This document shows positions 3,001 through 23,024 of a stretch of DNA of 23,244 nucleotides, piece by piece. The stretch is from a virus: the IMG/VR virus record IMGVR_UViG_3300018424_000263, positions 1 to 23,244 of that record; one strand, 5' to 3'. Within the stretch, counting starts at the first letter, position 1; each line of letters starts with the position of its first letter. The notes beneath the pieces are model-generated. The model was not told the DNA's origin, made no database searches, and saw only the letters and a list, made by a program, of their open reading frames with translations. The position numbers and the translations under genes are program-made.

Positions 3001-3547
3001 CACGTTAGACCCTGAGAACGCAATAGACGCTTATATTGACGCAAATAAAGCGCGGCTTAGAGTGATGGAAGAAATGTACAGAACGATTGAAAACATGCGT
3101 AAGTCAGGAATGAAAGACATAGAGATTAGACGTGCGTTAAAAAAGAATGGTGTGGGAGATGTCGGGTCTCTGATGAGAGGGAGGTTCGTTCCATTAGCAC
3201 CAGCATCGACGGTTAAAAAACGTGTTCGTGCTAACGGGAACAAACTTCCGATGTCCGAAATTAATGAACTCAGAAGAGAGTTTAAAAAAATAAAGCTTGG
3301 TGCACAACCAGAGCCAGAGCCAGTGTCCGAGGACCTTGAAACTCGGACCTTTGCCCCTCAACCCACAGAACAGTCTGCTGCGGCACTGCCCTCCTCCACG
3401 GTGCCAGCGCAAGCGGGAGCCGCACCTGCCCCACAGTCGGCTCCCGCACCTTCTTCCCAGCCACAAGATGCCGCAGGTGTGTTGCCTCTCTTGGGTAGTG
3501 GCTTGGATGCACTTAAGAACCTACAGATATTTCAGAGGACGCAATGA
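2..3547 (+). CDS. Large phage virion-associated protein, 5' end outside window
   Basis: The frame is open from the first complete codon at base 2 with no stop, so the ATG at 110 is internal and the real start lies upstream. At least 1181 residues are present. The protein is mostly helical and charged. A stretch around bases 1400-1550 (alternating polar and hydrophobic, with SPITQIRNF) resembles parts of the large polyvalent or internal virion proteins of marine phages. The C-terminus (about bases 3300-3475) is rich in Pro, Ala, Ser and Gln and is likely disordered. The stop overlaps the lysozyme start as ATGA. Position just before the lysis gene fits a late structural operon, and an ejected internal virion protein is the best guess. 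No enzymatic motif was recognised. Strand and reality are sure; the role is inferred. Confidence 0.85.
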   Translation, partial: DGSTTLGDFFGGGITQTTDTVGLQGKEAAVAKIGNRMKFALEGAGATAAVDPILKSLGYAGKGAVKVTAPVTAPVAKAALKAGTFLSSNVQKLAEEHPLLDGILASFRFRGNLSQEAAEARSRIRGEVDAELGQVSRTILQLEEGIDDALKQAEDGLENASPVTRQEILNEFYNYLTKDPDFIARAEAAGVPPLKLLPPEMQAAARKARVQIDRLSKQIEGSDYLSRPDLTGQEADAVLAIQENIGSYLRRRYKIFEDKNYIGSEAFNQNREEAIEYFINNPNAARNIDTEMSGGTSRLRDGEDVLVEGGREVLTRDAATRLVDDFVSQYSGRRLKTSGSAESKTVAANRLRTGLFRSRQANNEMLRRLMGEVKDPIEAMTTTIADMAEFVATDRFYKFINQNLVDDASGMFVSQDAYTRLPRAVQDEYEQLGEGFGSLKDAVYAKKNVYKDLTMQTKANTRDFSQVMRASYSMFLRGKGTTQYGATVLSPITQIRNFTSSSLFALAQGNVGTGANLFDSIGIVWKDIVKRPDKENYFRNLQRMGVVGTQSQLREIDNLISMGYGTTRGATEDTLGVPSSGRLSDKYLRGKAGMFVSSVNKRMRDLYQGGDDVWKVYNFEFEKNKVLSAFNGNVNQAARAVLGDDEFVTLMRQAADNGVSANKAAAQAVDQYAANLVKNLVPNYERVPEFIKGLRKLPVGNFIAFPAEILRTSANTIKQALDELASTNPKIREIGMRRLMGFTTTTMVVPTAMQKMALDLTGTTQEQIDAIRENGAPWEKNSILLPTSTKAGPDGKNTITGYVNYSYTNPYSYLSKPARAILNAVSKGQDMGSDTNKIATDAVLGAVQEMFEPFAGESILTERLLDVTVRNGVTKTGAKVYRNDSDVETPGDKIYKSMTHITGAFVPGGVKLFADVKAQRKETQQPGIELGRLSRAFAENTTDPSSGNQRKIAQEIFRALTGVTETEVKPENVLMYRGWEYGRSIQSAAQIFNSSVTTKSTLDPENAIDAYIDANKARLRVMEEMYRTIENMRKSGMKDIEIRRALKKNGVGDVGSLMRGRFVPLAPASTVKKRVRANGNKLPMSEINELRREFKKIKLGAQPEPEPVSEDLETRTFAPQPTEQSAAALPSSTVPAQAGAAPAPQSAPAPSSQPQDAAGVLPLLGSGLDALKNLQIFQRTQ
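3326..3360. repeat. Heptamer array inside virion protein gene
   Basis: Consecutive 7-base units follow one another: TCCGAGG, ACCTTGA, AACTCGG, ACCTTTG, CCCCTCA. They belong to the same word family as the arrays at 8511-8559 and 21407-21527. The array lies in the low-complexity C-terminal tail of the encoded protein. Confidence 0.45.
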
Positions 3548-4011: not shown

Positions 4012-4165
4012 AGAACACTGCCGTCGCTGTCCGCGCTGTAGCGAACCGCTTAAAACAGTTTTCGTGCATGGGCACGAACAATGTGTTACTTGTGACCAAG
4101 TAATCTATGACTGCTGTCAGGGAGAAACGTCATGCGAACCAAAAACCCAGTCGCAAAAAGCCTGA
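3995..4165 (+). CDS. Small cysteine-rich (zinc-ribbon-like) protein, 56 aa
   Basis: This short frame starts at an ATG inside the last 17 bases of the lysozyme gene, with GAGGG nine bases upstream. The product has eight cysteines: CRRCPRC near residue 9, CVTC near residue 30, then CC and a final C. Two CxxC knuckles 15 to 18 residues apart suggest a zinc ribbon. No family was recognised. It ends just before the late terminator, so it would be the last gene of the late operon. The paired cysteine spacing and ribosome site favour a real gene, but its short length leaves doubt. Confidence 0.6.
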   Translation: MTKEIKEHCRRCPRCSEPLKTVFVHGHEQCVTCDQVIYDCCQGETSCEPKTQSQKA

Positions 4166-4184
4166 AGCTACGACGATTCAGGCT
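4154..4184 (-). terminator. Rho-independent terminator of the replication operon
   Basis: On the minus strand a perfect 8-bp stem (AGCCTGAA 4159-4166 with TTCAGGCT 4177-4184, 10-base loop) is followed by a run of T (A at 4155-4159 on the plus strand). It lies beyond the last minus-strand gene, which ends at 4250, and overlaps the end of the convergent 56-residue gene. Confidence 0.6.
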
Positions 4185-4223
4185 CAAAATAGTCAAGCCC
4201 CGCAAAGGTAAGGGGTCTTATAC

Positions 4224-4250
4224 AAGGAAGGGCAAGTCCCTTCCTTTTTC
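4224..4250 (+). terminator. Rho-independent terminator of the late region
   Basis: A perfect 9-bp stem (AAGGAAGGG 4224-4232, CCCTTCCTT 4238-4246) with a 5-base loop ends in a T-run at 4245-4249. It follows the last plus-strand gene and precedes the convergent minus-strand gene ending at 4250. Confidence 0.85.
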
Positions 4251-4456
4251 TATATGCTTCCATCATGCTTACATTTGCCACCGACAATCTTTAGGTCAAG
4301 GTTGTTCTTCTTTATCATCACCAAACTATCCTCCTTCATCTCCTTCAAACGCGCAACGCACCGGGTTTCAGAGGCATAAGGGCCACGTGTGTCGATGATT
4401 TGTACGCACTTGTCCGTGCTGTACACAAAACAGGCAAGTAATATGGCAGTAAACAT
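4250..4456 (-). CDS. Small exported or membrane-anchored protein, unknown function
   Basis: The 68-residue product starts with a short hydrophobic segment (MFTAILLACFVYS), consistent with a signal peptide, possibly lipoprotein-like since a Cys follows the hydrophobic run. A polar domain follows with three more cysteines (about residues 17, 33 and 62) and the phrase DTRGPYAS, which I associate with small conserved proteins of marine phages. An AGGAG ribosome site lies seven bases before the ATG. It is the last gene of the minus-strand replication operon, and the stop touches the opposing terminator. The cysteines may form disulfides in the periplasm. A role in lysis or superinfection exclusion is possible but only a guess. 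Confidence 0.75.
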   Translation of the reverse strand: MFTAILLACFVYSTDKCVQIIDTRGPYASETRCVARLKEMKEDSLVMIKKNNLDLKIVGGKCKHDGSI

Positions 4457-6714: not shown

Positions 6715-6985
6715 TTACTATTTCTCCCCCCAAGGCTGCGTAACCTATGATGTCTATCCACGAATCATCCTTGCTAATGTCTTCAGCTAGCCGTGCCAGC
6801 TTAAGACCAACCATACATGCCACCACATCTTCTGGCGTAATGTCACACGTCAGCTTCTTTGCCAGTAGAATGTTCCAAATCTCTGCTATACGGTGATGGT
6901 TCAGCTTTGCCGGACCGTACTCCTTGGCCCTCGGTCCGTTGATTAATCCTTCGGCGGTATCTAAAAAATACTTTCTATCTTTCAT
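6701..6985 (-). CDS. DUF6378-like phage protein, 94 aa
   Basis: The sequence follows the pattern I know for DUF6378: an N-terminal helix with GPRAKEYGPAKLNHHRIAEI, then ITPEDVVACMVGLKLARLAE, then DDSWIDIIGYAALG. These proteins are widespread in phages and all-helical. Acidic residues on the helices resemble MazG-type nucleotide-binding bundles, but activity is not established. The start forms ATGA with the stop of the helicase gene, showing translational coupling. A heptamer array lies inside at 6921-6941. Confidence 0.85.
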   Translation of the reverse strand: MKDRKYFLDTAEGLINGPRAKEYGPAKLNHHRIAEIWNILLAKKLTCDITPEDVVACMVGLKLARLAEDISKDDSWIDIIGYAALGGEIVNDES

Positions 6986-8496
6986 AGCTTAAATCCATAT
7001 TGTGAGTGTGATTCGATTAGGTGTAATGCTTTTTTGGCACGAGTTAACCCCACGTAGAACGTGCGAACTTCGCCGTCCTGATCAGGGCTTTCAGCACATG
7101 CTCTGGAAGAATCTAAAAGAAGCGCGACATTATCCGCTTCGCCACCTTTGGCCTTGTGGATCGTCGATATCTTGATCCTCGGCTTGTCCGTCAGTATCTT
7201 CTCCCCCATCCTGCGGACAGATGTAATGTATATTCTCTCCCTCTCCGAAACTTTCAGCACACTGTGCCATGGTGACTCGGCGGAGACGCTCGTAGAAAAG
7301 TTCTCTTTTACGTCGTCGAGAGTGTAAGTTGTTTCGCTGTCGAGGGTGGCTAGCTTCTTCCTTCCAGATTTTGTCACGATATCCGACTTCAATAAGGTAG
7401 ATAACGTCTTCAACTCCTTCGCGGAAAGTCTCTGATTTTTGCATAGCCTTAACCAAACCTCGATTCCAGTTAGTACATTAGGGGAAATGGACCAACCAGA
7501 ACCTTCACGCCAGAACAGATAGCCCTGTTCTTTAAGTTCTGTTGATATCTTGTTGGCAATGTAATTTGTTCTAGCAAGGATTAGCCACTCGCCTCTGGTT
7601 AGGTCCACATCCATGATATCACGATGCCAGACTACATGACCAGCTTCTTCGACAGGTGACCAGACTTTTTCTTGCCTCACAACTACTTGTTTTATAAGAG
7701 AATCCGCAATGTTATAGACGTTTCTAGGAAGACGATATGACTTGTCCAACACCATCTTGTTATCCGATGCGTTCAAGAAATCCCTGACCTCTACACCCAT
7801 CCAAGAATAAATGCACTGGTCATCATCCCCTGCAAAATAGATGCGGTTTGCTCTGGGCTTGAGAACCTCATGCACCATGCGCCACTGTATCGGAGCCAAG
7901 TCCTGTGCCTCATCGACAATCAGAACCTCCAACCTCGGACCTTGACCCTCGGCTATGAAGCGTTCGATCATGTCAACAAAGTCAAGCTTGCCCGTGTCTT
8001 TCTTGTAAGACTCCACCACCTCTGCAACTATTTTTAGTTGCTGGTAATATAAACTCCTGTTGTTGGCGTCGTTGAATTGTTGTTCGAGGCTGACCCCACG
8101 AACCCGTGCCATTTGAATCATGGACAGATAAGCATCCCCACTCTTGCCCGGAGAAAAGAGTTGCCCATCTGCCATTGTCAGGGAAGAGTTGGAGCTAAAC
8201 TCTAACCCTAACAAACGACCGAGTTGCGTGAAGTCAGCCCCTTTCAACACTTGGTTAGTGCTTAACCCCAAGCATTGAAATGCTAGTGAGTGCAGTGTTC
8301 TAAACCAAACCATCTGGTCTGCACCCATGTTTAATGCAGAAGCGGCACGGTCTCGTGCTTCTTCCGCTGCCTTGCGGCTGAACGATACAAAGGCTATGTC
8401 CTCTGGTCTTGTACCATTCTCAAGCTCTTGCTTTACGATAGAGATTAACTTTGTTGTTTTGCCCGTACCTGGAGGCCCGAAGATTGTGGTCTGCAT
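6982..8496 (-). CDS. SF1A (UvrD/PcrA/Rep-like) DNA helicase
   Basis: The 504-residue protein is an ATP-dependent 3'-5' DNA translocase by family. Visible motifs are Walker A GPPGTGKTT (residues 7-15), motif Ia SFSRKAAEEA (38-47), Walker B DEAQD (195-199), motif III FAGDDDQCIYSW (221-232), motif IV KSYRLPRN (252-259), motif V STIHKAKGGEADNV (444-457) and motif VI YVGLTRAKKA (481-490). It is shorter than chromosomal UvrD (about 720 residues), lacking most of the inserted 1B/2B regions. It starts in a TAATG overlap with the primase stop. With no DnaB-type helicase visible, it may serve as the replicative helicase of this phage. Confidence 0.95.
   Translation of the reverse strand: MQTTIFGPPGTGKTTKLISIVKQELENGTRPEDIAFVSFSRKAAEEARDRAASALNMGADQMVWFRTLHSLAFQCLGLSTNQVLKGADFTQLGRLLGLEFSSNSSLTMADGQLFSPGKSGDAYLSMIQMARVRGVSLEQQFNDANNRSLYYQQLKIVAEVVESYKKDTGKLDFVDMIERFIAEGQGPRLEVLIVDEAQDLAPIQWRMVHEVLKPRANRIYFAGDDDQCIYSWMGVEVRDFLNASDNKMVLDKSYRLPRNVYNIADSLIKQVVVRQEKVWSPVEEAGHVVWHRDIMDVDLTRGEWLILARTNYIANKISTELKEQGYLFWREGSGWSISPNVLTGIEVWLRLCKNQRLSAKELKTLSTLLKSDIVTKSGRKKLATLDSETTYTLDDVKENFSTSVSAESPWHSVLKVSERERIYITSVRRMGEKILTDKPRIKISTIHKAKGGEADNVALLLDSSRACAESPDQDGEVRTFYVGLTRAKKALHLIESHSQYGFKL
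7932..7959. repeat. Heptamer array inside helicase gene
   Basis: Four adjacent units are ACCTCGG, ACCTTGA, CCCTCGG and CTATGAA on the plus strand. They encode roughly residues 180-189 of the helicase, a segment just before the Walker B strand. A weaker run of the same words occurs at 7144-7189. Confidence 0.4.
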
Positions 8497-10028
8497 TAGA
8501 ACGGCACCTCACTTTCAACCTCGATACTCGGTACTTGGACCTCGGTATTGAAAGCTGGGACCCACCAAACCCGTAATTGTTTTTGCTGTCCGTTGGTGGT
8601 GTCAAAATATTTTTTGCCGTTCGCCATATTATTCCCGTTCAGTTCTTTTAGTCGCTCCTGTATCTGACCACGGCTATAGCTATCAAACTTCTGGTTACGC
8701 AGAAACTTCAGCAAAGCTTCCAGCTTGAAGTACGTAACACCTTCCTCTTCGTCCGTGTATGGCTTGCCCAAAGACAGTTCTTCTGCGGACTGCGCCTGTA
8801 CCCTGCCGTCACAGAATGCTTCTAACAAGTCCATGAACTGGCCTTTATATGTCAGTTCTTCCGGCACATCTATCTCGCTCATGTCTTCCATTAGCAAAGA
8901 CACTACCTGTTGCCAGTCAGCAATCTTCATCATGGGCGGCATGATATGTATCTGTTCCATGCAAGCTTTCTGGAACCGCTGCGGTGTTTGCAGGTCATCG
9001 GTTGTTAGCTCTACGCGCTGACCACCTACATCACAGAACCAAACAGGTGGCTCTGACTTAACCACACATAGACCTGTTATCTCTACATGCTGGACGTGAC
9101 TACCTATACCGCAAGACTTAGTCTTGCAGAGAGCCTTGTTGCAGAAGGATTTGAGAGGCTCTTGTTCGCATGGAAAACCGTATTCTTTTTTCTCATGCTG
9201 CGACTGTATGGTTACAATCTCTGAGGCAGGTAGTGGCGGTGTGCCAAACTTGTTGTTGATTTCCTCAAGCCGTTGCTTCCATGTGTCGGGCTGTTCTTTC
9301 TTAGCACCAACAGCCGCCGCGAACATAACTGTATTGCGTGTCCCTTCAGGTATGCCCTGACTAAACATATGTGCAAGGCAAGGTGCCCACTGGTCGAACT
9401 CGTCAACGGGTTCGCCTAGTTGCAGGTTCTCGAAATCTTTTGGGGTTACCTTACGGGCTTCAATTAAATCCAGAAATTCGGTGAGGTCTGCTTCATCACC
9501 ATCTTCTTTGATGGCGTAACGCATTGTCTGTTCCGCATCAAAGTACGGAAGGTTAATAAAGTTCCCAACATCACCACGCTCGACAAGAATCTCTTCTTGC
9601 TTTGGGAATATTTCACAACCACCATATCCAAGATAGGCAGCAATCTCTGTAGCTTTGTCACGGAAAACACCTGCACTAAAAAACTCTGTAAAGAAAAAGA
9701 AGATATGTGCGCCGCCAGACTTAGAGCGGCAGACCACACATGGTATATCGTTGTCTCTTAGCTTCTTGTCAAGAGCAACTAGGTCTAATGGGTACTGGTC
9801 AATGTCAAGCGCACCGAACTTGCACTTGTTATTTTCGTTGATAGGTATAGAACCCACACCGCCCTTACCTTCTAGGTGTGCGACAATAAGTTCCAATGTT
9901 AATGGCTTCCTTACGATGAAAGACTTTGCCTTCTGCTTTCCGGCACGTCGTTCCTCTGATATTTGTGTCTGTCCATGTGCGGCACTGAAGCCTTCAAACG
10001 CCGCCATGAACCGTTCAGCTTGGTTCAT
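8496..10028 (-). CDS. Archaeo-eukaryotic primase (AEP) superfamily protein, TOTE/plasmid-primase-like
   Basis: The 510-residue protein carries the AEP catalytic pattern: metal-binding DhD as LDID (Asp75, Asp77), nucleotide-binding SGGAHI (104-109), then EIFPKQ (139-144) and GNFINLPYF (155-163), the latter typical of the TOTE-type and plasmid AEP primases. A second region holds Cys287, Cys296, Cys301 and Cys306 (FPCEQEP...FCNKALC...CGIG), a likely metal or Fe-S site. It would synthesise primers for the family A polymerase, and some AEPs also polymerise DNA. GGAG lies six bases before the ATG. The C-terminal codons run through a heptamer array (8511-8559) giving a Val/Glu-rich tail. It lies between the ssDNA-binding and helicase genes. 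Confidence 0.88.
   Translation of the reverse strand: MNQAERFMAAFEGFSAAHGQTQISEERRAGKQKAKSFIVRKPLTLELIVAHLEGKGGVGSIPINENNKCKFGALDIDQYPLDLVALDKKLRDNDIPCVVCRSKSGGAHIFFFFTEFFSAGVFRDKATEIAAYLGYGGCEIFPKQEEILVERGDVGNFINLPYFDAEQTMRYAIKEDGDEADLTEFLDLIEARKVTPKDFENLQLGEPVDEFDQWAPCLAHMFSQGIPEGTRNTVMFAAAVGAKKEQPDTWKQRLEEINNKFGTPPLPASEIVTIQSQHEKKEYGFPCEQEPLKSFCNKALCKTKSCGIGSHVQHVEITGLCVVKSEPPVWFCDVGGQRVELTTDDLQTPQRFQKACMEQIHIMPPMMKIADWQQVVSLLMEDMSEIDVPEELTYKGQFMDLLEAFCDGRVQAQSAEELSLGKPYTDEEEGVTYFKLEALLKFLRNQKFDSYSRGQIQERLKELNGNNMANGKKYFDTTNGQQKQLRVWWVPAFNTEVQVPSIEVESEVPF
8511..8559. repeat. Heptamer array at the 3' end of the primase gene
   Basis: Seven consecutive 7-base units are ACTTTCA, ACCTCGA, TACTCGG, TACTTGG, ACCTCGG, TATTGAA and AGCTGGG. 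This is the longest intragenic run of the family. It encodes the extreme C-terminus of the primase, where constraint is probably low. Confidence 0.5.
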
Positions 10029-10096: not shown

Positions 10097-10891
10097 TTAA
10101 AACAGTACGTCTGCGTCTTCAGTCGAAACAGTTTCCTGTTGCGGCTCTTCGCCCGTACTCATTTTAATCTCTCCAGAGCGGTATTTAAGGTACAGTTGCT
10201 TTGCTTCTTGCAACGCGGCCATCGGTACTGACTCCATCTCTAGCTGCTGAACTTGGTAGTTGAACCACGAACCTTTGTCGTTGGACTCCTGGATCGAGGT
10301 CAGCTTCCACGGCACTGCCCACATTGGTGGATTAAACAAACCCTTGCTTGGGTGCATAATCTTCAGGCCAGCGCGACGGGTGTTCCACTGCTTTGCAATC
10401 TTCATCTGTGTCTTCTTCATGTCACAGATCATCTGGTTTGTCATACCGTCTTCATTGTACGCAAGCACAAGGAACTGAGCAGAACGAACAAGCTCGTTAC
10501 CGTTTGGCAGTAACTCATTTGAACCCACGCGCTGAGTCTTGCGGATGTCTGGGTCGTTTGCTTTTATCTCACCCATGAAACCTCCACCGCTTTCGCGCAA
10601 CTGAAACTCAAGAAACTTGGTAGTGTACGCACACATCAGTACGTTCACACCTTCTTCTGCATCCCAGAAATCACCTGTCACTGTGTTGAAGATATCGCCA
10701 GCGGATGCGCCTTTGATAAACTTCGGGTCAGTCTTAATCAACTGTGGTGACAGTGGTTGAAGAAGACGCAGGAAAGGAATCTGCATATCTTCTTGCGTTA
10801 TTGTTTCCATGCCCTGACCCGCTGCTTCGTACAGGTCATCCATTATATTAGCAACTGCTGTGCTTTCTTTTTTTGCTACTGCTTCAGCCAT
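10097..10891 (-). CDS. Probable phage single-stranded DNA-binding protein
   Basis: The 264-residue product matches a phage family I associate with ssDNA binding (IPFLRLLQPLSPQ near residue 38, then GDIFNTVTG and a beta-rich core). The C-terminal 25 residues are acidic and end DADVLF, like the acidic hydrophobic-tipped tails by which SSB and T7 gp2.5 recruit partner proteins. The position directly before the primase and helicase genes supports the role. GAGGAG lies six bases before the ATG, and the gap to the upstream gene is two bases. The assignment rests on tail chemistry and context, not on a clear OB-fold signature. Confidence 0.65.
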   Translation of the reverse strand: MAEAVAKKESTAVANIMDDLYEAAGQGMETITQEDMQIPFLRLLQPLSPQLIKTDPKFIKGASAGDIFNTVTGDFWDAEEGVNVLMCAYTTKFLEFQLRESGGGFMGEIKANDPDIRKTQRVGSNELLPNGNELVRSAQFLVLAYNEDGMTNQMICDMKKTQMKIAKQWNTRRAGLKIMHPSKGLFNPPMWAVPWKLTSIQESNDKGSWFNYQVQQLEMESVPMAALQEAKQLYLKYRSGEIKMSTGEEPQQETVSTEDADVLF

Positions 10892-10893
10892 CT

Positions 10894-11457
10894 TTAGCTC
10901 CTCTTAATTGTAGCTTCTGTTCCGACGAATACCCCGAAGGTATCAAAGTCGATTTCCTGTCCGCTTTCAATGCGGTTCTTCACCCACGCCTTCAATGTTT
11001 GCGGGTGAACATGGGTTTTCTGTGCTGGTTCTAAACCCTGACTGCGAAGGTCATCGATGACCGCACCTGCCATGTTATCTTCACCAGACTTAAACGAAAC
11101 AGTCACATCGTTCTTGATGATGTCTGCCTCACCAATAGAACGAAGCCAAGTAAACGCCTCGTCTTTCTTGTCGTCAGCAATCCGCGCATGAACAAACTGC
11201 CGCAGGGCAACCTTGTTGCCATCAACGGTCACAGAATCCATGCCCATTTCCTGCATCAGGTTGGGGATGTCTTCTTCGTTTACTTTGCGTTTCTTGAATT
11301 TAAGATCCTTGAGGTATTGCTCTGCTTCAGCAATCTTCTCATCAATCTCCATAGACTGACGGATAAGATTAGACAGTGTACTGCCCTTCTCACCATCTAC
11401 TTTGTCGAACTTAGAGGCATCGACTTCCTCATCAAATAGCGAAAACACATCGCTCAT
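10894..11457 (-). CDS. Conserved coiled-coil phage replication-associated protein
   Basis: The 187-residue product has an acidic N-terminus, a charged heptad-type helix at about residues 28-62, a small beta region (VTVDGNKVALRQFV, 76-89), and a C-terminal block VHPQTLKAWVKNRIESG (150-166) followed by a beta hairpin. I have seen this C-terminal block in phage proteins encoded next to ssDNA-binding proteins, but I cannot name a function. It is the first gene of the replication operon, about 50 bases downstream of a strong promoter, with GGAG eight bases before the ATG. It may be an accessory or loading factor. Reality is sure, role open. Confidence 0.85.
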   Translation of the reverse strand: MSDVFSLFDEEVDASKFDKVDGEKGSTLSNLIRQSMEIDEKIAEAEQYLKDLKFKKRKVNEEDIPNLMQEMGMDSVTVDGNKVALRQFVHARIADDKKDEAFTWLRSIGEADIIKNDVTVSFKSGEDNMAGAVIDDLRSQGLEPAQKTHVHPQTLKAWVKNRIESGQEIDFDTFGVFVGTEATIKRS

Positions 11458-12510: not shown

Positions 12511-12538
12511 AAGAAAACCTGCGATGGGCAGTCGCAGG
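12511..12538 (-). terminator. Rho-independent terminator / attenuator after RHH gene
   Basis: On the minus strand CCTGCGA (12532-12538) and TCGCAGG (12518-12524) form a perfect 7-bp stem with a 7-base loop, followed by TTTTCTT (12511-12517). It separates the RHH gene from the ParB-like gene. The stem arms are the same CCTGCGA word found in the heptamer arrays. Confidence 0.75.
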
Positions 12539-13326: not shown

Positions 13327-14575
13327 AGTCATTGGCGTAGTAGATTACGTTCGTTGCCGCCGTCAGTGTTAGCCCGTACCCTGCTGTCTGTGGGTTGGCA
13401 ACAAAGAACCTTGCATCACCAAACTGAAATGCCTGGATGGCAGCTTGCCTGTCCTCATCACTGGTGTCCCCGTAATAACTGACCACGGAACTCGAACCAT
13501 GAACCTTGGCTAGCTGTGCCTGTATGTTCTTTATGTCATAGCGGAAGCGAGACCAGATGATTACCTTTCCAGACATCTCATCTACCGTATCCAGAAGAGC
13601 CTCGATGCGCTTGGTCGGGAACTCGACTAGCTCTCCATCGTCCGTCATCAGATGGCCACACAGCACCTGCTGTAGGCGCAGTAATTGGGTCATCACTGCC
13701 GGGGCGGACACCAACTGACCATCGTCAAGAAGAGCAATGGCGGCAGTCTTGATAGACTGATAGTAGCCTAGCTGTTCCTTCGTCATCATCACTTCACGGG
13801 TGGTATATATTTTATCCGGCAGGTCGAGTGCTTCGTCCTTGGTTACCCGATAAGAAAACCCAGCCAGCCTGTCCGACAGTTCGTCAAGATTACGATAGCC
13901 CACAATCTGCTGGAAGCTATGCGAACCCATGCGCTGGGTACGGGTGATGGCGTACCGTCCTTGGTAGGAGTAGTAACTATCAAAACCTAACAGCTTCTTG
14001 TCCATGAACCCACATTGTGCGTAGAGATCCATAGGCGATTTAGTAACGGGTGACCCCGTAAGAATACGTTTGTACGCTGCACTCTGACCAAGGCTAACCA
14101 GAGCCTTAGTCCGCTTGGCTTTGGGGTTCTTAATAGTTGTGCTCTCATCAACCGCAAGTAGGAAAGACGAACCTCGTGTAAAGTGATCCACGTATTGAGC
14201 GACCTTCTTCGACGCACCGAAGCCCTCGACGTTGACCAATAGAATGCGGAGCTTTTCACGCTTCTCAACCCCGTCGGACAGCTTTTCCCGTTGACTTTTG
14301 TTTGGGTTCGCACTCCAAACATATACCTCGTGTTCAATGTCCTCTGGTAAATGAGTAGGTATCTCTGATACCTGCCAGTTTCGGTACACACCTTTCGGGG
14401 CAACGACAATCGCGGTGTCAATCTTGCCTTCCTCATATAGCCATGTGATGTTGTCGATAAGAACTTTTGATTTTCCACAACCCATCTCCATAAAGTAACC
14501 GAAGTTCTTTTTGTCATAGGATTTCTGTAGCGCAGTCTCTTGGTGCGCGTATGGCTTAGTCTTGTACTTAAACAT
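13118..14575 (-). CDS. SNF2-family (SF2) DNA translocase / helicase
   Basis: The 485-residue protein shows SNF2-type motifs: motif I EMGCGKSK (30-37), motif Ia VVAPKGVYRNW (57-67), motif II DEST (143-146) in place of DEAH, motif III LTGSPV (172-177), motif V TAGYGLTLTAA and motif VI QSEDRAHRIGQ (424-434), the hallmark of SNF2 ATPases. Similar stand-alone SNF2 proteins are common beside phage replication genes, where they may unwind or remodel DNA or assist recombination. Motif I lacks the Thr after Lys-Ser. The 3' 209 bases overlap the convergent nuclease gene. GAGGGG precedes the ATG closely. Confidence 0.94.
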   Translation of the reverse strand: MFKYKTKPYAHQETALQKSYDKKNFGYFMEMGCGKSKVLIDNITWLYEEGKIDTAIVVAPKGVYRNWQVSEIPTHLPEDIEHEVYVWSANPNKSQREKLSDGVEKREKLRILLVNVEGFGASKKVAQYVDHFTRGSSFLLAVDESTTIKNPKAKRTKALVSLGQSAAYKRILTGSPVTKSPMDLYAQCGFMDKKLLGFDSYYSYQGRYAITRTQRMGSHSFQQIVGYRNLDELSDRLAGFSYRVTKDEALDLPDKIYTTREVMMTKEQLGYYQSIKTAAIALLDDGQLVSAPAVMTQLLRLQQVLCGHLMTDDGELVEFPTKRIEALLDTVDEMSGKVIIWSRFRYDIKNIQAQLAKVHGSSSVVSYYGDTSDEDRQAAIQAFQFGDARFFVANPQTAGYGLTLTAATNVIYYANDFNLETRVQSEDRAHRIGQHHPVTYVDLVTKGTVDVHIVKSLRNKIDLSAKTLGEEARQWLELDPRRSDD

Positions 14576-15168: not shown

Positions 15169-15536
15169 GACTGCCTTACCTTTGCCTCCAAGTCTTCATT
15201 AACAGGCTCTGGATCAGACAGCCAGTTCTCTATCAGATTCTCTATGGTGTTCACCGCTTCTGACCACTCCACTTTCTGAGGGGCAGCACAGAAATCTTCT
15301 TCGCTTGGCATCAAATATGTCTCATGCATATCAATCTCCTGCGACTGTTCGCTATCTTCCTTTATCTTATCAAAAAATATCTCACTGTCAAGAATCTGAA
15401 GGCCGCACACATGGCAGTCGATAGTCTTTGCCTCCTGATTGACGGTCAAAGTGTTATGACATTTCGGGCACAGACCTGCGGCCAACCGCTTTTGCATAGA
15501 CCCGTCACCAACTTCAATGGACTGTTTCATCTTCAT
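15144..15536 (-). CDS. Zinc-ribbon protein of unknown function, about 130 aa
   Basis: The start is set at Met at 15536, where GAGG precedes the codon. The longer frame to 15560 lacks a ribosome site, and a Met two codons later is equally possible. Near the N-terminus CPKC (23-26) and CHVC (41-44) form a zinc ribbon with a 14-residue insert. The remainder is acidic and helical (EIFFDKIKEDSEQSQEIDMH, then a Trp-containing helix). The ribbon could bind nucleic acid or a host protein. No specific family recognised. Confidence 0.75.
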   Translation of the reverse strand: MKMKQSIEVGDGSMQKRLAAGLCPKCHNTLTVNQEAKTIDCHVCGLQILDSEIFFDKIKEDSEQSQEIDMHETYLMPSEEDFCAAPQKVEWSEAVNTIENLIENWLSDPEPVNEDLEAKVRQSWQRILAG

Positions 15537-15771: not shown

Positions 15772-15983
15772 TTTTTTATTTCCTCTATCAATGCGACCTC
15801 AACATCACCAATGATGTAGTCTCTTTGCTGTAACAACTTGCTCTTTTGCGTTGCCCTGCCCAATGCTATCTCTTCTGCCTCTTCTTTATCAATCGCCATC
15901 ACTGTGTATTCTTTGATGCACTCCACTGCTACTAGCACCTTGAACCTCGAAGCTTTGTTTCGATGGCTTGTCATGGTTTTCAC
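15768..15983 (-). CDS. Hypothetical protein, 71 aa, GTG start
   Basis: A GTG start at 15983 is preferred because GGAGG lies seven bases upstream and the codon overlaps the upstream stop as GTGA, like the neighbouring junctions. The much longer frame (ATG at 16085) would run antiparallel to nothing but fully overlap the upstream gene in another frame. The core FKVLVAVECIKEYTVMAIDKEEAEEIAL looks like a small alpha/beta unit similar to DpnD/PcfM-type domains (beta strand then an acidic helix). Function unknown. Confidence 0.7.
   Translation of the reverse strand: MKTMTSHRNKASRFKVLVAVECIKEYTVMAIDKEEAEEIALGRATQKSKLLQQRDYIIGDVEVALIEEIKK
15930..15957. repeat. Heptamer array inside small gene
   Basis: Adjacent units are TACTAGC, ACCTTGA, ACCTCGA and AGCTTTG on the plus strand, near the start of the 71-residue gene. 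The words match the dispersed heptamer family. Confidence 0.4.
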
Positions 15984-16189
15984 GAAACTTCCTCCAGTCC
16001 GTTGTAATGTATAGTCACGCCACGCTCTGCTTCGGCTTCCAAGAACTTTAGCCATCCATCGCTTGGCCTGACCCCTGTATCCCACTCGATATCTTCCAGC
16101 CGCATAGATTCCTGGCGGATGGCTTGCCGTATCGGGATGCCTGTTGCCCTTACCACGGGGTTTATCTCTCTATACATACTCACCGCCAT
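15980..16189 (-). CDS. Hypothetical protein, 69 aa
   Basis: The product has an Arg-rich N-terminal half (IPIRQAIRQESMRLEDIEW) and a Glu-rich helix (GWLKFLEAEAERG). It overlaps the upstream gene by 20 bases. Met5 has a GGTGAG near it and is an alternative start. No family recognised. Confidence 0.65.
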   Translation of the reverse strand: MAVSMYREINPVVRATGIPIRQAIRQESMRLEDIEWDTGVRPSDGWLKFLEAEAERGVTIHYNGLEEVS

Positions 16190-16373
16190 ACCCCCACTTG
16201 CCGCCCTTGCTCCGTCTCATTGCGGCACGGGTGTAGCCCTGTTGTGTCCGCGTTACACGTCTCTGACCGACACGGTACTTATCAAATTGCAGCAATTCAT
16301 CTTTCTTCTGTTCGAGATGTGCCCTGAACTCTTCGACTGTCATGTCCCCTGCTTTCTTTAGCTTGCTCTCCAT
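16170..16373 (-). CDS. Hypothetical basic protein, 67 aa
   Basis: A charged N-terminal helix (MTVEEFRAHLEQKKDELLQF) is followed by a strongly basic tail rich in Arg and Gly (RVGQRRVTRTQQGYTRAAMRRSK, given here only as a pattern of Arg/Gln/Thr). GGGAGG lies eight bases before the ATG. The basic tail is unusual in this otherwise acidic cassette and suggests nucleic-acid binding. No family recognised. Confidence 0.7.
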   Translation of the reverse strand: MESKLKKAGDMTVEEFRAHLEQKKDELLQFDKYRVGQRRVTRTQQGYTRAAMRRSKGGKWGYGGEYV

Positions 16374-16798
16374 ATCCTAGCCCTCCCATCTGAAAGCTTG
16401 CGTGTCACCACCTTCATCTTTTTGCAACGCATATAACTGCTGGCCTGACCCCTGTCTCGATCATCAACAACAAAACTATCACCAACTTCCATCGCTTCTG
16501 TGAATGTCCATTTGGAAGAGGGAATGGCTTCTGGAATGGGTATGTTTTTTTCTATCACACAGCCAGACTTATCAACCTTCACGCCCTTGCCTAAATTGTT
16601 CCAAGCTTCGATGTCTTGGTCAGTTGTATCGCCTTTCATTATTACCTCCATAGTCGAGTATCTGCACCCACAGTCCTGACATTCTCTTCGTCTGCTTTTA
16701 TATATCTCACCATCATAACCATTCTCCCTGTACCGCGAATCCTTGACGATACTGTTGACGCTATTACATCTTGGGCAGTTGAAACTTGAACTAGCCAT
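16358..16798 (-). CDS. NrdR-like zinc-ribbon protein with DUF7303-like C-terminal region
   Basis: The start is set at 16798, with GGGAGGA eight bases upstream. The first 50 residues follow the NrdR zinc-ribbon pattern: CPRC (8-11), V-K-DSR (18-22), RRRECQDC (36-43) and R-YSTMEV (46-51). The ATP-cone of NrdR is missing. Instead the C-terminal half (FTEAMEVGDSFVV, then ARIWRAS at the end) resembles DUF7303-type small phage domains. A DNA-binding or host-interaction role is possible. It should not be called NrdR. The start overlaps the upstream stop by 8 bases. Confidence 0.78.
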   Translation of the reverse strand: MASSSFNCPRCNSVNSIVKDSRYRENGYDGEIYKSRRRECQDCGCRYSTMEVIMKGDTTDQDIEAWNNLGKGVKVDKSGCVIEKNIPIPEAIPSSKWTFTEAMEVGDSFVVDDRDRGQASSYMRCKKMKVVTRKLSDGRARIWRAS

Positions 16799-17186
16799 AG
16801 TAATCATCCTCCCATTCTTCATTGAATACCTTGTCCAGATGTTCGATGATATCGTCTGGCAAGTAATTACGCGCTGGCTCATAGCCCAATGGTTCAACGT
16901 CATTGCGCGTTGCACCTCGATCCTTGATCCTTTGTTCTACCTCCGGCAACCAGTCATCCAAATCCACGCCTGTGTCGTTCTTCTCAGGGAACAAGATGGA
17001 CTTGCCGTCCTTCTTGATGTCGAAGATCATGTAGTTGTGACAGCCCCAGCTTTCTGTCTCGCAGGTATAGCCAAGGCTTTCAATCTCACCTTCAACCTCA
17101 TGCGTTCCGTTCCAGCCATCGCCATCCCCGAACCCAAACTTGTCGAAGGCTTCTTCCCATTGCCATGTGATGTATATTTTAGGCAT
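16791..17186 (-). CDS. Hypothetical acidic protein, 131 aa
   Basis: The start is set at the ATG at 17186, preceded by GGGAG at six bases and overlapping the upstream stop. A longer frame to 17225 has a Cys/Arg-rich segment typical of antisense noise. The product opens with an aromatic beta segment (KIYITWQWEEAFDKFGFGDGDGW, described by its Trp, Phe and Gly content) and ends with an acidic helix (EEWEDDYYG). A heptamer array lies at 16914-16941. Function unknown. Confidence 0.78.
   Translation of the reverse strand: MPKIYITWQWEEAFDKFGFGDGDGWNGTHEVEGEIESLGYTCETESWGCHNYMIFDIKKDGKSILFPEKNDTGVDLDDWLPEVEQRIKDRGATRNDVEPLGYEPARNYLPDDIIEHLDKVFNEEWEDDYYG
16914..16941. repeat. Heptamer array inside small gene
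   Basis: Units are ACCTCGA, TCCTTGA, TCCTTTG and TTCTACC, consecutive and in plus-strand orientation like the other arrays. They encode about residues 82-91 of the 131-residue protein. Confidence 0.45.
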
Positions 17187-19409: not shown

Positions 19410-19831
19410 CAGCTTGCCTCCGCATATGCGCGTAACATCTGCCGATGCGGCATATAGTTTATCAGCTTCCACACGTTATCCTGTACGGCTTCCTCCCAAA
19501 AACTTTCAAAGATATGAACCACCAGATCCCCGACATAACTGTCATAGGAAATGCGATAGTAATAATCGCACCAGTTAAAGTCTTCCATTACTTGCCGTGT
19601 CGATGCGTGCTCAAACAATGGTATCAGCCTTATCTCGCCACCCTTCTTGTTCTTGTTGGCGGCAACAAACGCGGACGCAAATTCGTCAGCCTCGAACCTT
19701 GGAAACTTCCATGCCCAGTCCTTGGCCGCCTCGATGTGATGTGCCGCACCCTGCGGATAGCCGTCATAGTGTTTATAAACACCATACATACCGCTATCAT
19801 CCTCGAAAAAATAAACCGCTCTTGTGCCCAT
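19409..19831 (-). CDS. Conserved phage protein, 140 aa, MGTR...YKHYDGYP family
   Basis: The N-terminus MGTRAVYFFEDDSGMYGVYK followed by HYDGYPQGAAHHI matches a recurrent phage and plasmid family that I recognise by this signature but cannot assign to a function. The start overlaps the upstream stop as TAATG, with GGGGAGG seven bases upstream. The C-terminal half carries Trp/Tyr-rich beta segments (CDYYYRISYDSYVGDLVVHIF). Confidence 0.82.
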   Translation of the reverse strand: MGTRAVYFFEDDSGMYGVYKHYDGYPQGAAHHIEAAKDWAWKFPRFEADEFASAFVAANKNKKGGEIRLIPLFEHASTRQVMEDFNWCDYYYRISYDSYVGDLVVHIFESFWEEAVQDNVWKLINYMPHRQMLRAYAEAS

Positions 19832-20097: not shown

Positions 20098-20336
20098 TAC
20101 ACGACCCTCCAGCCATCGTTGTTTAATAACTCTACCAACTGCGATACAAACCCATGTTCAACGACCAAGGCATTACCCAAAAACTGTGCCTCGTCATCGG
20201 TGTTATCAATCAGGTTCTGTAAAGCCTCGTCATTCTGTGGATAGAACAAGAAAATAGAATGATGATTAACCACCCGATAATCTCCGTCCTCGATCCACGA
20301 ACCTATGTCCTGAACTTTCTGCGATTCTGTTGTCAT
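20097..20336 (-). CDS. Hypothetical acidic protein, 79 aa, first gene of the cassette
   Basis: This is the promoter-proximal gene of the small-gene operon, with GGAGGA eight bases before the ATG and a sigma70-type promoter upstream. The product has a short strand-rich start (DYRVVNHHSIFLFYPQND) and two helices (ALQNLIDNTDDEAQFLG, VSQLVELLNND). No family recognised. Confidence 0.78.
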   Translation of the reverse strand: MTTESQKVQDIGSWIEDGDYRVVNHHSIFLFYPQNDEALQNLIDNTDDEAQFLGNALVVEHGFVSQLVELLNNDGWRVV

Positions 20337-20576: not shown

Positions 20577-21152
20577 TTGGAAAATAAAAACACTAAACCC
20601 ATAGAAAACACTACTGGCAAGGTAGGCAGGCCAGCAGGACTGACGGAACGGCAAAGAACTTTTGCCAAGTATTATGTCGAAGGAAGATATAGCAACGCGG
20701 AGTGTGCGCGAAAGGCTGGCTATGCAGATAAATCTGCCAATGTTCAGGCTTCAAAGCTTCTCAACGGCCATGATTTCCCAGAAGTGGTGGAACTCATAAA
20801 GGAACTACGGCAAGAGGCTGAGAGAAAATATGGCGTCACCCTTATCAATCAGCTTAAAAGACTGGATGAATTATCCAGAGGCGCAGAAGATGCAGGGCAA
20901 TTCTCTGCCGCTATCAACGCTGAGAAAATACGGTCTGCCCTTGGCGGACTGACAATAGACAGGCGCGAGGCAACCCATGTCCATCAGCTTGATAATATGA
21001 GCAAGCAAGACATTGTGGCACGGCTGGCAGAACTGCGTAAATCTTATCCGAATGCATTTATCGAGGGGGAGATAAAGAATGTCACGCCAACAGACAACAG
21101 AGACGAAAATCTGGAACTCATTGAGGCAACACCTACCGAAGAAGACACATAG
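20577..21152 (+). CDS. terS: Candidate terminase small subunit
   Basis: The 191-residue product has the Terminase_2-like N-terminal pattern: GRPAGLTERQRTFAKYYVEG, NAECARKAGYADKSANVQASKLL and PEVVELIKELRQEA. That is a helix-turn-helix region that recognises the packaging site, followed by a helical oligomerisation region and a disordered acidic tail for large-subunit contact. The start is TTG, supported by GGAG seven bases upstream. No ATG is nearer. No large subunit is seen in the window, so terL must lie elsewhere. The gene sits downstream of the inverted repeat at 20475-20551 and overlaps a nuclease gene by 74 bases. Confidence 0.82.
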   Translation: MENKNTKPIENTTGKVGRPAGLTERQRTFAKYYVEGRYSNAECARKAGYADKSANVQASKLLNGHDFPEVVELIKELRQEAERKYGVTLINQLKRLDELSRGAEDAGQFSAAINAEKIRSALGGLTIDRREATHVHQLDNMSKQDIVARLAELRKSYPNAFIEGEIKNVTPTDNRDENLELIEATPTEEDT

Positions 21153-21495
21153 CCAACGGATTGAAAACCGCGTATCTGAGGGGATGCCGGACTGCTATCT
21201 GTGTATAGATGGTGTGCCTGTCTGGGTAGAATTAAAAATAATAAAAAGTAATCGAATATATCTAAGGCCATCACAAATAGCATGGCATACCAGCCATTCG
21301 CGGTGTGGTGGTGTAAGTTTTTTTCTTTGTTACAGCCCCACGGAGAGGCTTGCATTTTTATTTGAGGGTGGATTAGCGGCCAAGATCCAAGGTTCGGGGT
21401 TCGATGACCTGCGACCTGCGGCCTTATTCTCTGGGGATCTAAAAGCTTGCGCCTTGAACCTGCGACCTGCGGCCTGCGACCTCTGGTCTATGTAG
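21079..21495 (+). CDS. VRR-NUC domain nuclease
   Basis: The 138-residue product has the VRR-NUC signature of the PD-(D/E)XK fold: RIEN with Glu29, EGMPDCYL with Asp38, VWVELK with Glu51 and Lys53, and PSQIAWH with Gln66. Stand-alone phage VRR-NUC proteins are predicted structure-specific nucleases. GGGGGAG lies seven bases before the ATG. The last 30 residues are read through a heptamer array and contain repeated LRPAA, so the C-terminus is probably a repeat-derived extension beyond the roughly 95-residue domain. Overlap with terS suggests joint expression, perhaps in packaging, where other phages keep an HNH nuclease. Confidence 0.9.
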   Translation: MSRQQTTETKIWNSLRQHLPKKTHSQRIENRVSEGMPDCYLCIDGVPVWVELKIIKSNRIYLRPSQIAWHTSHSRCGGVSFFLCYSPTERLAFLFEGGLAAKIQGSGFDDLRPAALFSGDLKACALNLRPAACDLWSM

Positions 21496-21527
21496 AAAAA
21501 GAGAGACGCCTGCGACCTGCGCCTGCG
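21407..21527. repeat. Heptamer repeat array (RCCTGCG), VRR-NUC 3' end and downstream
   Basis: Three clusters are seen: ACCTGCG twice then GCCTTAT (21407-21427); GCCTTGA, ACCTGCG, ACCTGCG, GCCTGCG, ACCTCTG (21451-21485); and GCCTGCG, ACCTGCG, CCTGCG (21508-21527). The first two are coding and the last is intergenic. Just before, at 21387-21400, related words appear in the opposite orientation (CCAAGGTTCGGGG). Confidence 0.85.
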
Positions 21528-21573
21528 CCTCTAAGTTGTAGGAGATATATTGCATAGTAAAATTATAGATGGA

Positions 21574-21606
21574 AAGGGCAGCGCGTCAAGGCACTGCCCC
21601 TTTTTG
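21574..21606 (+). terminator. Rho-independent terminator after the VRR-NUC gene
   Basis: GGGCAG (21576-21581) pairs with CTGCCC (21594-21599), with an additional GC/GC pair inside the loop, followed by T at 21601-21605. The stem is also close enough to the convergent GP88-like gene end (21608) to act on both strands, though the minus-strand T-run is short. Confidence 0.8.
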
Positions 21607-21607
21607 T

Positions 21608-22282
21608 TTAGTGTTTCGGGTATGATACTGTTTTGACGGCAGGCGACCAGCAGGCACGGCACTTGCCGCAATAGCCTAGACCCAGCTTGCCCAATTGTTT
21701 TTCCTTTTTTGCGGCCTTGTATTCGTCATGGGCGATCATGTCACCGTTTTTCTTTGTGCGGTATGCCTCGCAAAGCTTGCCTACGGCCTTGTGAATATCC
21801 GTGACGACCGCGCTGGAATTTTGCCAGGACTCAGGCGGGGCATCATCAACCATGGTCGCGCTGTAACGAACAACGGCATTGCCTGGCAGGCTATCCATCT
21901 TTAAAGCTTCCTGCCATAACTTGCGCTCTTTTGTAGGTATCCAGTGTTTTTTGTTCGGTGTTAACTTGGCAACCGCTATTATTTTTAGGCAATGCGCCAC
22001 GCTCCGCACGTCACCGCTATCGAACCAGCGCATTGTATCATTGCGCGATTTATTCAGAAGCGCGGCCATGTCCTGCACAAAATTATCAGAGTTTAAAAAA
22101 TCTAGTCTGGCCTGCATTGCGTTTTGTACTACTGGCCACGGGTAAGCCCCTTTCATAGCATAGCAATCGTGACAAACACTGCCCGGAATTTTGGCCAGCT
22201 TCTGGCCAGTAACACAACCGAACGCGCTTATATTGAAGCTATCGCCCGGCATCTTTTTTGGTTTTGATAATATAGCAACCAT
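21608..22282 (-). CDS. GP88-like protein, 224 aa
   Basis: The product resembles the phage and plasmid gene product 88 family: Cys23, then CHDCYAMKGAYPW (Cys37, Cys40), RWFDSGDVRSV (85-95) with the conserved Ser-Gly-Asp, PTKER (116-120) and RYSAT (139-143). A CGKCRACW triad closes the C-terminus (Cys205, Cys208, Cys211). Function is not established. The two cysteine groups suggest zinc or an Fe-S cluster, and I vaguely see similarity to radical-SAM-type barrels, which is inference. GGAGAT lies eight bases before the ATG, with a clear promoter upstream, so it is an independent unit. Confidence 0.82.
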   Translation of the reverse strand: MVAILSKPKKMPGDSFNISAFGCVTGQKLAKIPGSVCHDCYAMKGAYPWPVVQNAMQARLDFLNSDNFVQDMAALLNKSRNDTMRWFDSGDVRSVAHCLKIIAVAKLTPNKKHWIPTKERKLWQEALKMDSLPGNAVVRYSATMVDDAPPESWQNSSAVVTDIHKAVGKLCEAYRTKKNGDMIAHDEYKAAKKEKQLGKLGLGYCGKCRACWSPAVKTVSYPKH

Positions 22283-22313
22283 TATTAAAATCTCCTATTC
22301 TATGGTTTATCTT

Positions 22314-22342
22314 ATTTTATCTAATCTTTAAACAAACTGCAA
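22314..22342 (-). promoter_or_regulatory. Promoter of the GP88-like gene
   Basis: On the minus strand TTGCAG (22337-22342) and TAAAAT (22314-22319) are spaced by 17 bases. An 11-base direct repeat TTTATCTAATC occurs at 22316-22326 and 22345-22355, straddling the promoter, which looks like a paired operator. Confidence 0.65.
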
Positions 22343-22353
22343 GCTTTATCTAA

Positions 22354-22391
22354 TCCTGCGACCCTTTACGACCTGCGGCCTGCGGCCTCGC
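22354..22391. repeat. Heptamer repeat array (RCCTGCG), intergenic
   Basis: Units are TCCTGCG, ACCCTTT (slightly displaced), ACCTGCG, GCCTGCG and GCCTCGC. The array lies between the GP88-like promoter and the terminator of the next small gene. It is in the same orientation as the other arrays. Confidence 0.85.
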
Positions 22392-22410
22392 TCTGATATA
22401 TAAAGGCCAA

Positions 22411-22440
22411 ACAAAACAAGGCCGGGATGACCCGGCCTTG
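22411..22440 (-). terminator. Rho-independent terminator of the 59-aa gene
   Basis: A perfect 10-bp GC-rich stem (CAAGGCCGGG 22417-22426, CCCGGCCTTG 22431-22440) with a 4-base loop is followed on the minus strand by TTTTGTTT. It lies 18 bases beyond the stop of the gene at 22458. Confidence 0.88.
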
Positions 22441-22457
22441 CTCTGGGAGATAACTCT

Positions 22458-22637
22458 CTAATCTCTTCCGATGTCTAACAGGATTTTGTCATCCTCATCC
22501 ATGAAGAATGTCACCTCATGGTTTTCTGTCTTTATGATTAACAGCCTCTTCCTTGTTTGTGCATGCCTGTTTAACCATTCGGTTGAAATAGTAACGTCGT
22601 TACCGTCGGTATGAATTGATAGTGATGATGATTCCAT
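22458..22637 (-). CDS. Hypothetical protein, 59 aa
   Basis: This gene was read directly from the sequence. The start overlaps the upstream stop as TAATG, with GGAGA seven bases upstream. The product has a serine-rich start (MESSSLSIHTDGNDVTIS), a basic middle (RHAQTRKRLLIIKTE) and strands ending FFMDEDDKILLDIGRD. It looks like a small beta-sheet protein. A strong terminator follows. No family recognised. Confidence 0.75.
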   Translation of the reverse strand: MESSSLSIHTDGNDVTISTEWLNRHAQTRKRLLIIKTENHEVTFFMDEDDKILLDIGRD

Positions 22638-22879
22638 TATGCAATCTCCTTATCATATGGCTGAATTAAATCATCGGCTTGGCCTTCGATATGGGCTAAC
22701 TCTTCTGCCCATTCGGCAATCTGTTCTGCCAGATTTTCCATAGCTTCTGAAACGTGCTGGTTTTTTGCTTCCATGCTATCGCAGTGTAGATCCTGTGATA
22801 ACTCTTCTGCTAGGTTTCTAGCCTCGCAGACTGCACTGGCTAGCTTCCTTGCCATGGTTAAGGTTGAACTATCTAACAT
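22637..22879 (-). CDS. Hypothetical helical protein, 80 aa
   Basis: The product is almost entirely helix-forming, with Ala/Glu-rich heptads (RKLASAVCEARNLAEELSQD, ENLAEQIAEWAEELAHIEG), and probably forms a coiled-coil dimer or bundle. GGAGATAAAATA precedes the ATG at standard spacing. Its 5' leader contains two short hairpins (22901-22937). No family recognised. Confidence 0.75.
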   Translation of the reverse strand: MLDSSTLTMARKLASAVCEARNLAEELSQDLHCDSMEAKNQHVSEAMENLAEQIAEWAEELAHIEGQADDLIQPYDKEIA

Positions 22880-22900
22880 TATTTTATCTCCTTCTAATGT

Positions 22901-22937
22901 TACCCATTTTGGGTAGTGTCGCCCAGGGGGACTGGGC
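22901..22937. promoter_or_regulatory. Two leader hairpins before the 80-aa gene
   Basis: TACCCA/TGGGTA (22901-22915) and GCCCAG/CTGGGC (22921-22937) form two consecutive 6-bp stems with loops of 3 and 5 bases, just before the ribosome site of the gene starting at 22879. They could stabilise or regulate the mRNA. No matching riboswitch class was recognised. Confidence 0.4.
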
Positions 22938-22974
22938 TTATCTCATCTTATCAAATTTTTAGATAAAGATAAAG
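22937..22974. repeat. GATA-type imperfect inverted repeat
   Basis: CTTATCTCATCTTATC (22937-22952) faces GATAAAGATAAAG (22962-22974) across a 9-base AT-rich spacer. TTATC words also crowd the GP88-like promoter at 22308-22350. The shared word suggests a common regulator, but AT-rich words recur easily by chance. No convincing promoter was found for the 80-residue gene. Confidence 0.35.
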
Positions 22975-22983
22975 GCTTTTATT

Positions 22984-23024
22984 TCCTGCGACCTGCGACC
23001 TCGCTCTGCGGCCTGCGGCCTTGT
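22984..23024. repeat. Heptamer repeat array (RCCTGCG), intergenic
   Basis: Units are TCCTGCG, ACCTGCG, ACCTCGC, TCTGCG (one base short), GCCTGCG and GCCTTGT. It directly abuts the perfect inverted repeat at 23026-23050. Like the arrays at 22354 and 21508, it lies at a gene boundary. Confidence 0.85.

Follow-up and report, generated by a model that had tools for sequence, protein, structure and literature searches.

The omega/ParB system of pSM19035 uses contiguous, non-palindromic 7-bp direct repeats that lie over promoter regions at several places, and a single heptad is bound weakly while adjacent heptads are bound with high affinity (PMC9499535). In the Beggiatoaceae, direct repeats of the heptamer TAACTGA are mostly intergenic, upstream of genes, and a regulatory role has been proposed for them (PMC4679880). 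The G-quadruplex heptamers GGGNATC of Xanthomonas and Nostoc form dispersed arrays that are enriched in non-coding DNA (PMC4692102). Short sequences are also read by AEP enzymes: GTG is recognised by AEP helix bundles, and the PrimPol of NrS-1 requires a template sequence of 8 nt (PMC7102993, PMC8718748).

The DNA analyzed here, referred to as the window, is the whole 23,244-base virus record IMGVR_UViG_3300018424_000263. Like the omega sites (parS) of pSM19035, its arrays are contiguous 7-bp direct repeats at predicted promoters, and those of related phages end 0–24 nt upstream of the −35 box. Unlike them, the unit is CCTGCGN instead of WATCACW, the sub-arrays often hold 2–4 contiguous copies rather than 7–10, weak strand-polar arrays are present inside genes, and no omega/RHH gene was found above cut-off in 18 records. 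With TAACTGA the phage arrays share heptamer direct repeats that are mostly intergenic and upstream of genes, but TAACTGA is located within several nucleotides of start codons, with a proposed post-transcriptional role, whereas the phage arrays are upstream of the −35 box. They resemble GGGNATC in that their heptamers form dispersed arrays, found preferentially in non-coding DNA, and differ from it because CCTGCGN is without G-tracts of three and the phage units are degenerate and phage-specific. The likeness to the NrS-1 template, in which an AEP-type primase of a phage reads a short sequence, is putative on the side of the phage arrays, and the NrS-1 recognition sequence consists of two single copies, not of a tandem.

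The window and its relatives

The window encodes a family A DNA polymerase, a UvrD-like helicase, an AEP-type primase (8496–10028, minus strand; PF22548, with a sub-threshold PriCT_1 match), a terminase small subunit (TerS; 20577–21152, plus strand; profile match to PF03592, Terminase_2 family) and a Gp88-like protein (21608–22282, minus strand; PF17338), the last being a homolog of gp33 of pelagiphage HTVC027P. Near these are a nuclease-like gene at 21079–21495 on the plus strand (phrog_2165, with a weak Holliday-junction-resolvase match) and an 80-aa gene at 22637–22879 on the minus strand. By their polymerase, the nearest annotated phages are 023Pt_psg01, DSL-LC04, HTVC023P, and HTVC027P (47–55% identity); a direct DNA similarity search of annotated phages with the window gave no match. 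When IMG/VR was scanned for CCTGCGRCCTGCGRCC, at least 120 stretches matched, many of which belong to relatives of the window phage. Homologs of TerS were found in 71 of the fetched loci, of the nuclease in 77, and of the Gp88-like protein in 51, counts that include the isolates searched alongside. Dozens of relatives have arrays homologous to those of the window, many with two to four in a matching layout, and the repeats noticed by the initial annotation are thus shared with related phages.

Apart from the arrays, an 88-aa ORF of the window (4132–4398, plus strand) matches ArfA (PF03889); another ArfA is gp30 of HTVC027P, which belongs to an expression class of its own (PMC12753301). A tandem GTAACCGCACCT repeat is present at 200–225 of the window, and a tandem AACCGCACCT repeat at 23282–23320 of DSL-LC04.

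Intergenic heptad arrays

Arrays of 7-base words had been claimed at three intergenic places, and all three are present: tandem CCTGCGN units are found at 21408–21527 (array 1), 22354–22391 (array 2), and 22985–23021 (array 3). Pairs of CCTGCG at a lag of 7 nt number six on the plus strand of the window and none on the minus strand, and 300 dinucleotide shuffles produced none. Heptanucleotide long simple sequence repeats of prokaryotes are tandem 7-nt units beyond chance, and the window arrays have this feature. The arrays are real, and the original observation is confirmed. The copy number of the intergenic arrays differs from phage to phage, and the units are CCTGCGN and CCTYGRN, or GCTTGAR in HTVC027P; the pSM19035 unit, WATCACW, is not matched. 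Within one phage the seventh base is mildly homogenized (0.45 versus 0.34), a difference confounded with common descent. The stem at 12518–12538, said to use the same word, does contain one CCTGCGA and its inverse, forming a hairpin with a short minus-strand T-run, and is not an array.

Among the matches listed, tandem CCTGCGR was also found in bacteria of many phyla (genome_contigs loci L125–L244), with variants that include CCTGTGA, CCCGCGA, and CTTGCGA. No host was identified among these matches, and the bacterial arrays were taken as unrelated heptamer repeats.

In array 1, CCTGCGR-type units start at 21408, 21415, 21459, 21466, 21473, 21509, 21516, and 21522 on the plus strand, with a CCTTGAA at 21452. 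The array sits between convergent genes and is conserved in the relatives, with an internal spacing of 51 bp. Its first part is shared with the 3′ end of the nuclease ORF, where it encodes the C-terminus of the protein with an LRPAA-type motif. The heptads of its left arm (21380–21407, minus strand; CCAAGATCCAAGGTTCGGGGTTCGATGA as read on the plus strand) point the opposite way, and array 1 is therefore divergent; many relatives have a minus-strand array at the place of this arm. No promoter was found beside array 1, a partial exception among the intergenic arrays. We propose that it may be another binding site of the putative binder of arrays 2 and 3.

Predicted promoters beside arrays 2 and 3

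Array 2, on the plus strand, is upstream of the Gp88-like gene and reads CGCAGGY on the transcribed minus strand, and relatives have homologous arrays. At 12 nt from its last heptad is a sigma70-like promoter (22314–22342, minus strand) composed of TTGCAG (22342–22337), N17, and TAAAAT (22319–22314), and the start codon of the Gp88-like gene comes next. A terminator-like hairpin with a T-run (22408–22440, minus strand) is located between the upstream transcript and array 2. Array 3, also on the plus strand, is upstream of the 80-aa minus-strand gene, with a weak sigma70-like promoter at 22945–22973 on the minus strand (TTTATC, N17, TAAGAT; shuffle P 0.18 in the window). The flank of array 2, which is identical in the relative L042, gave a moderate sigma70 P of 0.12, and neither promoter was listed by a generic promoter scan of the window.

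In the relatives, the mean best sigma70 score of 71 distinct promoter-side flanks (AT-rich flanks preceding an ORF, a restriction chosen after the first flanks had been inspected) was 7.5 versus 4.5 in shuffled flanks, by a search that is permissive in AT-rich flanks. The score had a P of 0.05 or less in 42% of these flanks, and the spacer between the −35 and −10 boxes was 17 in 48 of the 71. The −35 box begins 0–24 nt past the array end, and in three relatives (L006, L021, and L047) a −35 TTGACA/T abuts the last heptad directly. By eye, a TGGGAT...ATCCCA element could be seen over the −10 box in many of the flanks. The unrestricted test, in which all CCTGCG arrays were taken, array 1 and internal sub-arrays included, gave a weak signal, with a mean of 2.7 versus 2.4 at random and 13% versus 3% of scores above 8. 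On these comparisons, arrays 2 and 3 are directly upstream of predicted sigma70-like promoters across the phage group, a genomic correlate that was absent from the initial annotation.

Annotated phages

At each of the three syntenic places, the isolate HTVC027P carries an array of period 7, built of the units GCTTGAR/GCTTGCG. The array upstream of gp33 continues directly into TTGACA-N17-TATAGG, and the one upstream of gp34 into TTGACA-N17-TAGGAT. As judged from the sequences, the period and place of the arrays are conserved between the window phage group and HTVC027P, and the unit is not. This phage has no RNA polymerase of its own, and RNA-seq of its infection places gp33 and gp34 alone in a temporal cluster of their own, “extra cluster 2”; the transcriptome paper makes no mention of repeats (PMC12753301). 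Among the external evidence for a regulatory role, this expression match, which concerns two genes of one distant relative, is the strongest.

In the same region of HTVC027P, gp32 is annotated as a minus-strand CDS (L124, 16499–16747) that overlaps both a plus-strand homolog of the nuclease (tblastn, 16231–16572) and the array, and it may therefore be misannotated.

At the place of array 2, a TTGACA promoter of 023Pt_psg01 is preceded by a short repeat of another kind, and in HTVC023P a tandem repeat unlike the heptads closely follows terS. Both phages have an annotated primase, yet these heptads are absent from them. DSL-LC04 has a related pattern, but its strong arrays and its intragenic arrays are on opposite strands, and a simple polarity rule does not account for this. 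Other words were seen in 023Pt_psg01 (L121), namely GCTT/GCTC tetranucleotide repeats at the first syntenic place (15390–15471) and GGGCCCACCC-type words at all three places (15390–15471, near 16180, and near 16990).

Intragenic arrays

Outside its intergenic arrays, the window has six lag-7 pairs of CCTNG on the plus strand and none on the minus strand, with about 0.2–0.3 expected, the figure from motif density being 0.3, and none of 500 codon-order shuffles reached six, the maximum being three. Plain lag-7 base identity over the genes of the window was not significant (z = 1.5), and lags 4 and 5 were higher; the signal is therefore one of motif and not of bulk periodicity. Thus, of the lag-7 enrichment expected over a codon-shuffled null, the motif pairs bore out the expectation and the bulk identity did not.

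The 16 long contigs of relatives, oriented by their main arrays, had 41 lag-7 pairs of CCTYGR on the plus strand and two on the minus strand. The same motif gave 0–4 pairs on either strand at lags 6, 8–13, and 15–20, and 9 and 8 pairs on the plus strand and 3 and 3 on the minus strand at lags 14 and 21. Among 80 loci that were retrieved with the primase as the sole query, 157 lag-7 pairs were on one strand and two on the other, with 25 pairs at lag 14 and 0–13 at other lags; since some of these loci share a record with one of the 16 contigs, and orthologous sites are many, the pair counts are not independent events. Inside the genes of 17 contigs, 40 pairs were on the plus strand (16 in plus-strand genes and 24 in minus-strand genes) and one on the minus strand, compared with synonymous-shuffle means of 1.7 and 0.3, respectively, and these pairs, many of them orthologous, correspond to roughly 20 distinct sites by eye. 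The initial annotation had described the repeats as strand-biased, oriented regardless of gene direction, and not codon-driven, all of which agrees with these counts: the intragenic CCTYGRN arrays are far above the synonymous-codon null, which rules out a protein constraint as their cause.

A degenerate 5-unit profile, trained leave-one-genome-out and used at a score of 15 or more, detected 103 intragenic arrays on the plus strand versus 10.4 expected and 30 on the minus strand versus 2.8 expected. By this looser profile the fold excess is similar on both strands, and the strict pairs are almost all on the plus strand. Several minus-strand arrays are at fixed places, to the left of array 1 and to the left of the plus-strand array in a 799-aa gene. 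In the window, the profile found 10 plus-strand arrays and one minus-strand array, with a high-scoring array about every 2–3 kb. Weak plus-strand arrays are located at 3326–3360 in a gene for 1145 aa (profile score 23.9), 6907–6941 in the DUF6378 gene, 7918–7952 in the UvrD-like helicase gene, 8511–8545 in the 3′ end of the primase gene, 10250–10284 in a Pam3 gp34-like gene, where codons are conserved beyond expectation, 13475–13509 in a helicase gene (phrog_62), 15923–15957, 16900–16934 at the start of a 185-aa gene, and 20280–20314 near the start of a 79-aa gene. With the exception of the first, all of these genes are on the minus strand; the arrays at 6907 and 8511 have orthologous arrays in several relatives. 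Most of the weaker arrays listed initially were recovered by the profile (3326, 6921, 7932, 8511, 15930, and 16914), which added those at 10250, 13475, and 20280, while 7144–7189 was below the 5-unit threshold and 19689–19702 proved to be one pair only.

The 185-aa protein (16358–16915, minus strand) has an NrdR-like zinc ribbon (PF22811, E 6e-7).

Motif-free 4-mer identity in genes, relative to the synonymous null, was 1.17 at lag 7 and 1.19 at lag 14, and was also raised at lags 5 and 6 (1.19 and 1.17). Unrelated phages and IMG/VR loci had no excess at lag 7 or lag 14 (0.95–1.03), which rules out a general phage property. Promoter linkage was tested for the intragenic arrays, and none was found.

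Codon alignments of five genes showed proteins that are colinear at the arrays, with gaps of at most one residue that are unlinked to the repeat, and no 7-nt indels were found at the five aligned sites. Orthologs with heptads are separated from those without by substitutions, some of them amino-acid changing. These alignments contradict the idea of an inserted repeat, for which homologs without insertions at the arrays had been named beforehand as the refuting result, and slippage-derived diversity in protein loops is unsupported at the same five sites. Of the five genes, two had raised codon identity at conserved residues within the array (uncorrected P of 0.006 and 0.02), and strong purifying selection on array codons in general was rejected, as the signal is confined to these two. 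Overall, the interpretation first given to the repeats is partly supported, and replication polarity, one of the roles suggested there, may apply to the intragenic arrays. By the tests used, the strand-polar intragenic arrays are real, and their role is only proposed; the shared period and strand and the partly shared words suggest a link with the intergenic arrays.

Possible functions of the arrays

We favor, with a probability of about 0.5, the explanation in which arrays 2 and 3 act as tandem operators or activator sites at sigma70-type promoters of small minus-strand genes, an arrangement for which omega/ParB of pSM19035 offers a precedent (PMC9499535). Each 7-bp unit would bind one protomer or dimer of a putative protein, cooperatively, from a position immediately upstream of the −35 box, and the promoters would drive the small minus-strand genes between terS and terL. 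With a predicted terminator upstream of each array–promoter unit, the unit would restart transcription, and its genes would be a small co-regulated class. A unit that drifts among phages while period and position stay fixed is what would be expected if binder and sites co-evolve, and the intragenic arrays may be bound more weakly by this protein or a related one. The observed basis for this explanation is formed by the arrays themselves, the promoter linkage, the synteny with HTVC027P despite a different unit, and the gp33/gp34 expression class; the binder, the sign of regulation, the cooperativity, and the intergenic–intragenic link are what we infer.

Candidates for the binder were sought in 18 records, mostly fragments. 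The RHH_1 profile was above cut-off in none of the 18, with two weak sub-threshold matches, the HTH_3 profile likewise had none above cut-off, and Omega_Repress had no match, its control matching nowhere either. Because no RHH protein was found above cut-off in these records, membership in the omega family is not claimed. A weak ParB-like match was obtained for the window gene at 10894–11457 (E 0.005).

A broader and doubtful reading is that a phage protein reads, once per 7 nt, a genome-wide, strand-polar 7-nt code that is present in sense and antisense coding strands and has its strongest sites in the promoter-side arrays. Such a code would be written mostly by codon choice and substitution, and its reader could be, for example, the primase, an ssDNA-binding protein, or a translocating protein.

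It is unlikely that the arrays are neutral heptanucleotide simple-sequence repeats which arose by replication slippage and have no function. Of the simple repeats of 5–11 nt, heptamers are given as the most abundant in the majority of the prokaryotic genomes examined, and polymerase slippage has been proposed as their origin (Mrazek 2007, as cited in PMC4679880). Tandem CCTGCGR in diverse bacteria, among the matches listed, would fit such an origin, as would the lack of raised codon identity at array positions in three of the five genes. Slippage, however, does not agree with the fixed position beside promoters in divergent phages, with the change of unit in HTVC027P, whose arrays occupy the same places, with strand polarity, or with intragenic arrays that arise by substitutions instead of 7-nt indels. 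The strand polarity, being independent of gene direction, and the high-scoring arrays found about every 2–3 kb in the window would better suit primase or replication start sites, with an origin cluster in the terS–terL region and weaker sites scattered elsewhere on one strand. The window primase would be the candidate reader, as its AEP domain (PF22548) and sub-threshold PriCT_1 match point to a possible helix-bundle domain, and template sequence recognition by AEP enzymes has precedent (PMC7102993, PMC8718748). We nevertheless consider start sites quite unlikely, given that the intergenic arrays are promoter-linked, that the NrS-1 sequence has only two untandemed copies, that no strand switch marking a bidirectional origin was seen, and that HTVC023P and 023Pt_psg01 have a primase without these heptads.

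Proximity is what suggests a candidate pac site, at which the TerS encoded beside array 1 would bind the heptads and start headful packaging. The arrays adjoin the terS gene in the relatives, TerS belongs to the Terminase_2 family, and the different tandem repeat of HTVC023P is also just downstream of its terS, but arrays 2 and 3 lie 1–2 kb from terS and are promoter-linked, and intragenic arrays occur throughout the genome, so that this role is very unlikely.

Significance

Under the preferred explanation, that of regulator sites, the arrays are a candidate control element, conserved in period and place and not in sequence. The phage group is widespread and marine, and its arrays are probably landing sites for a candidate regulator. 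The literature searched on phage heptamers and pelagiphage repeats gave no earlier account of these arrays, and an abundant marine phage group may therefore have an unrecognized control element. As the isolate HTVC027P carries the syntenic version and has infection RNA-seq, the promoter model is directly testable there. The strand-polar intragenic heptads are a separate puzzle, for which the synonymous-codon null does not account; if they prove functional, they would constitute a second layer of information in the coding DNA of these phages.
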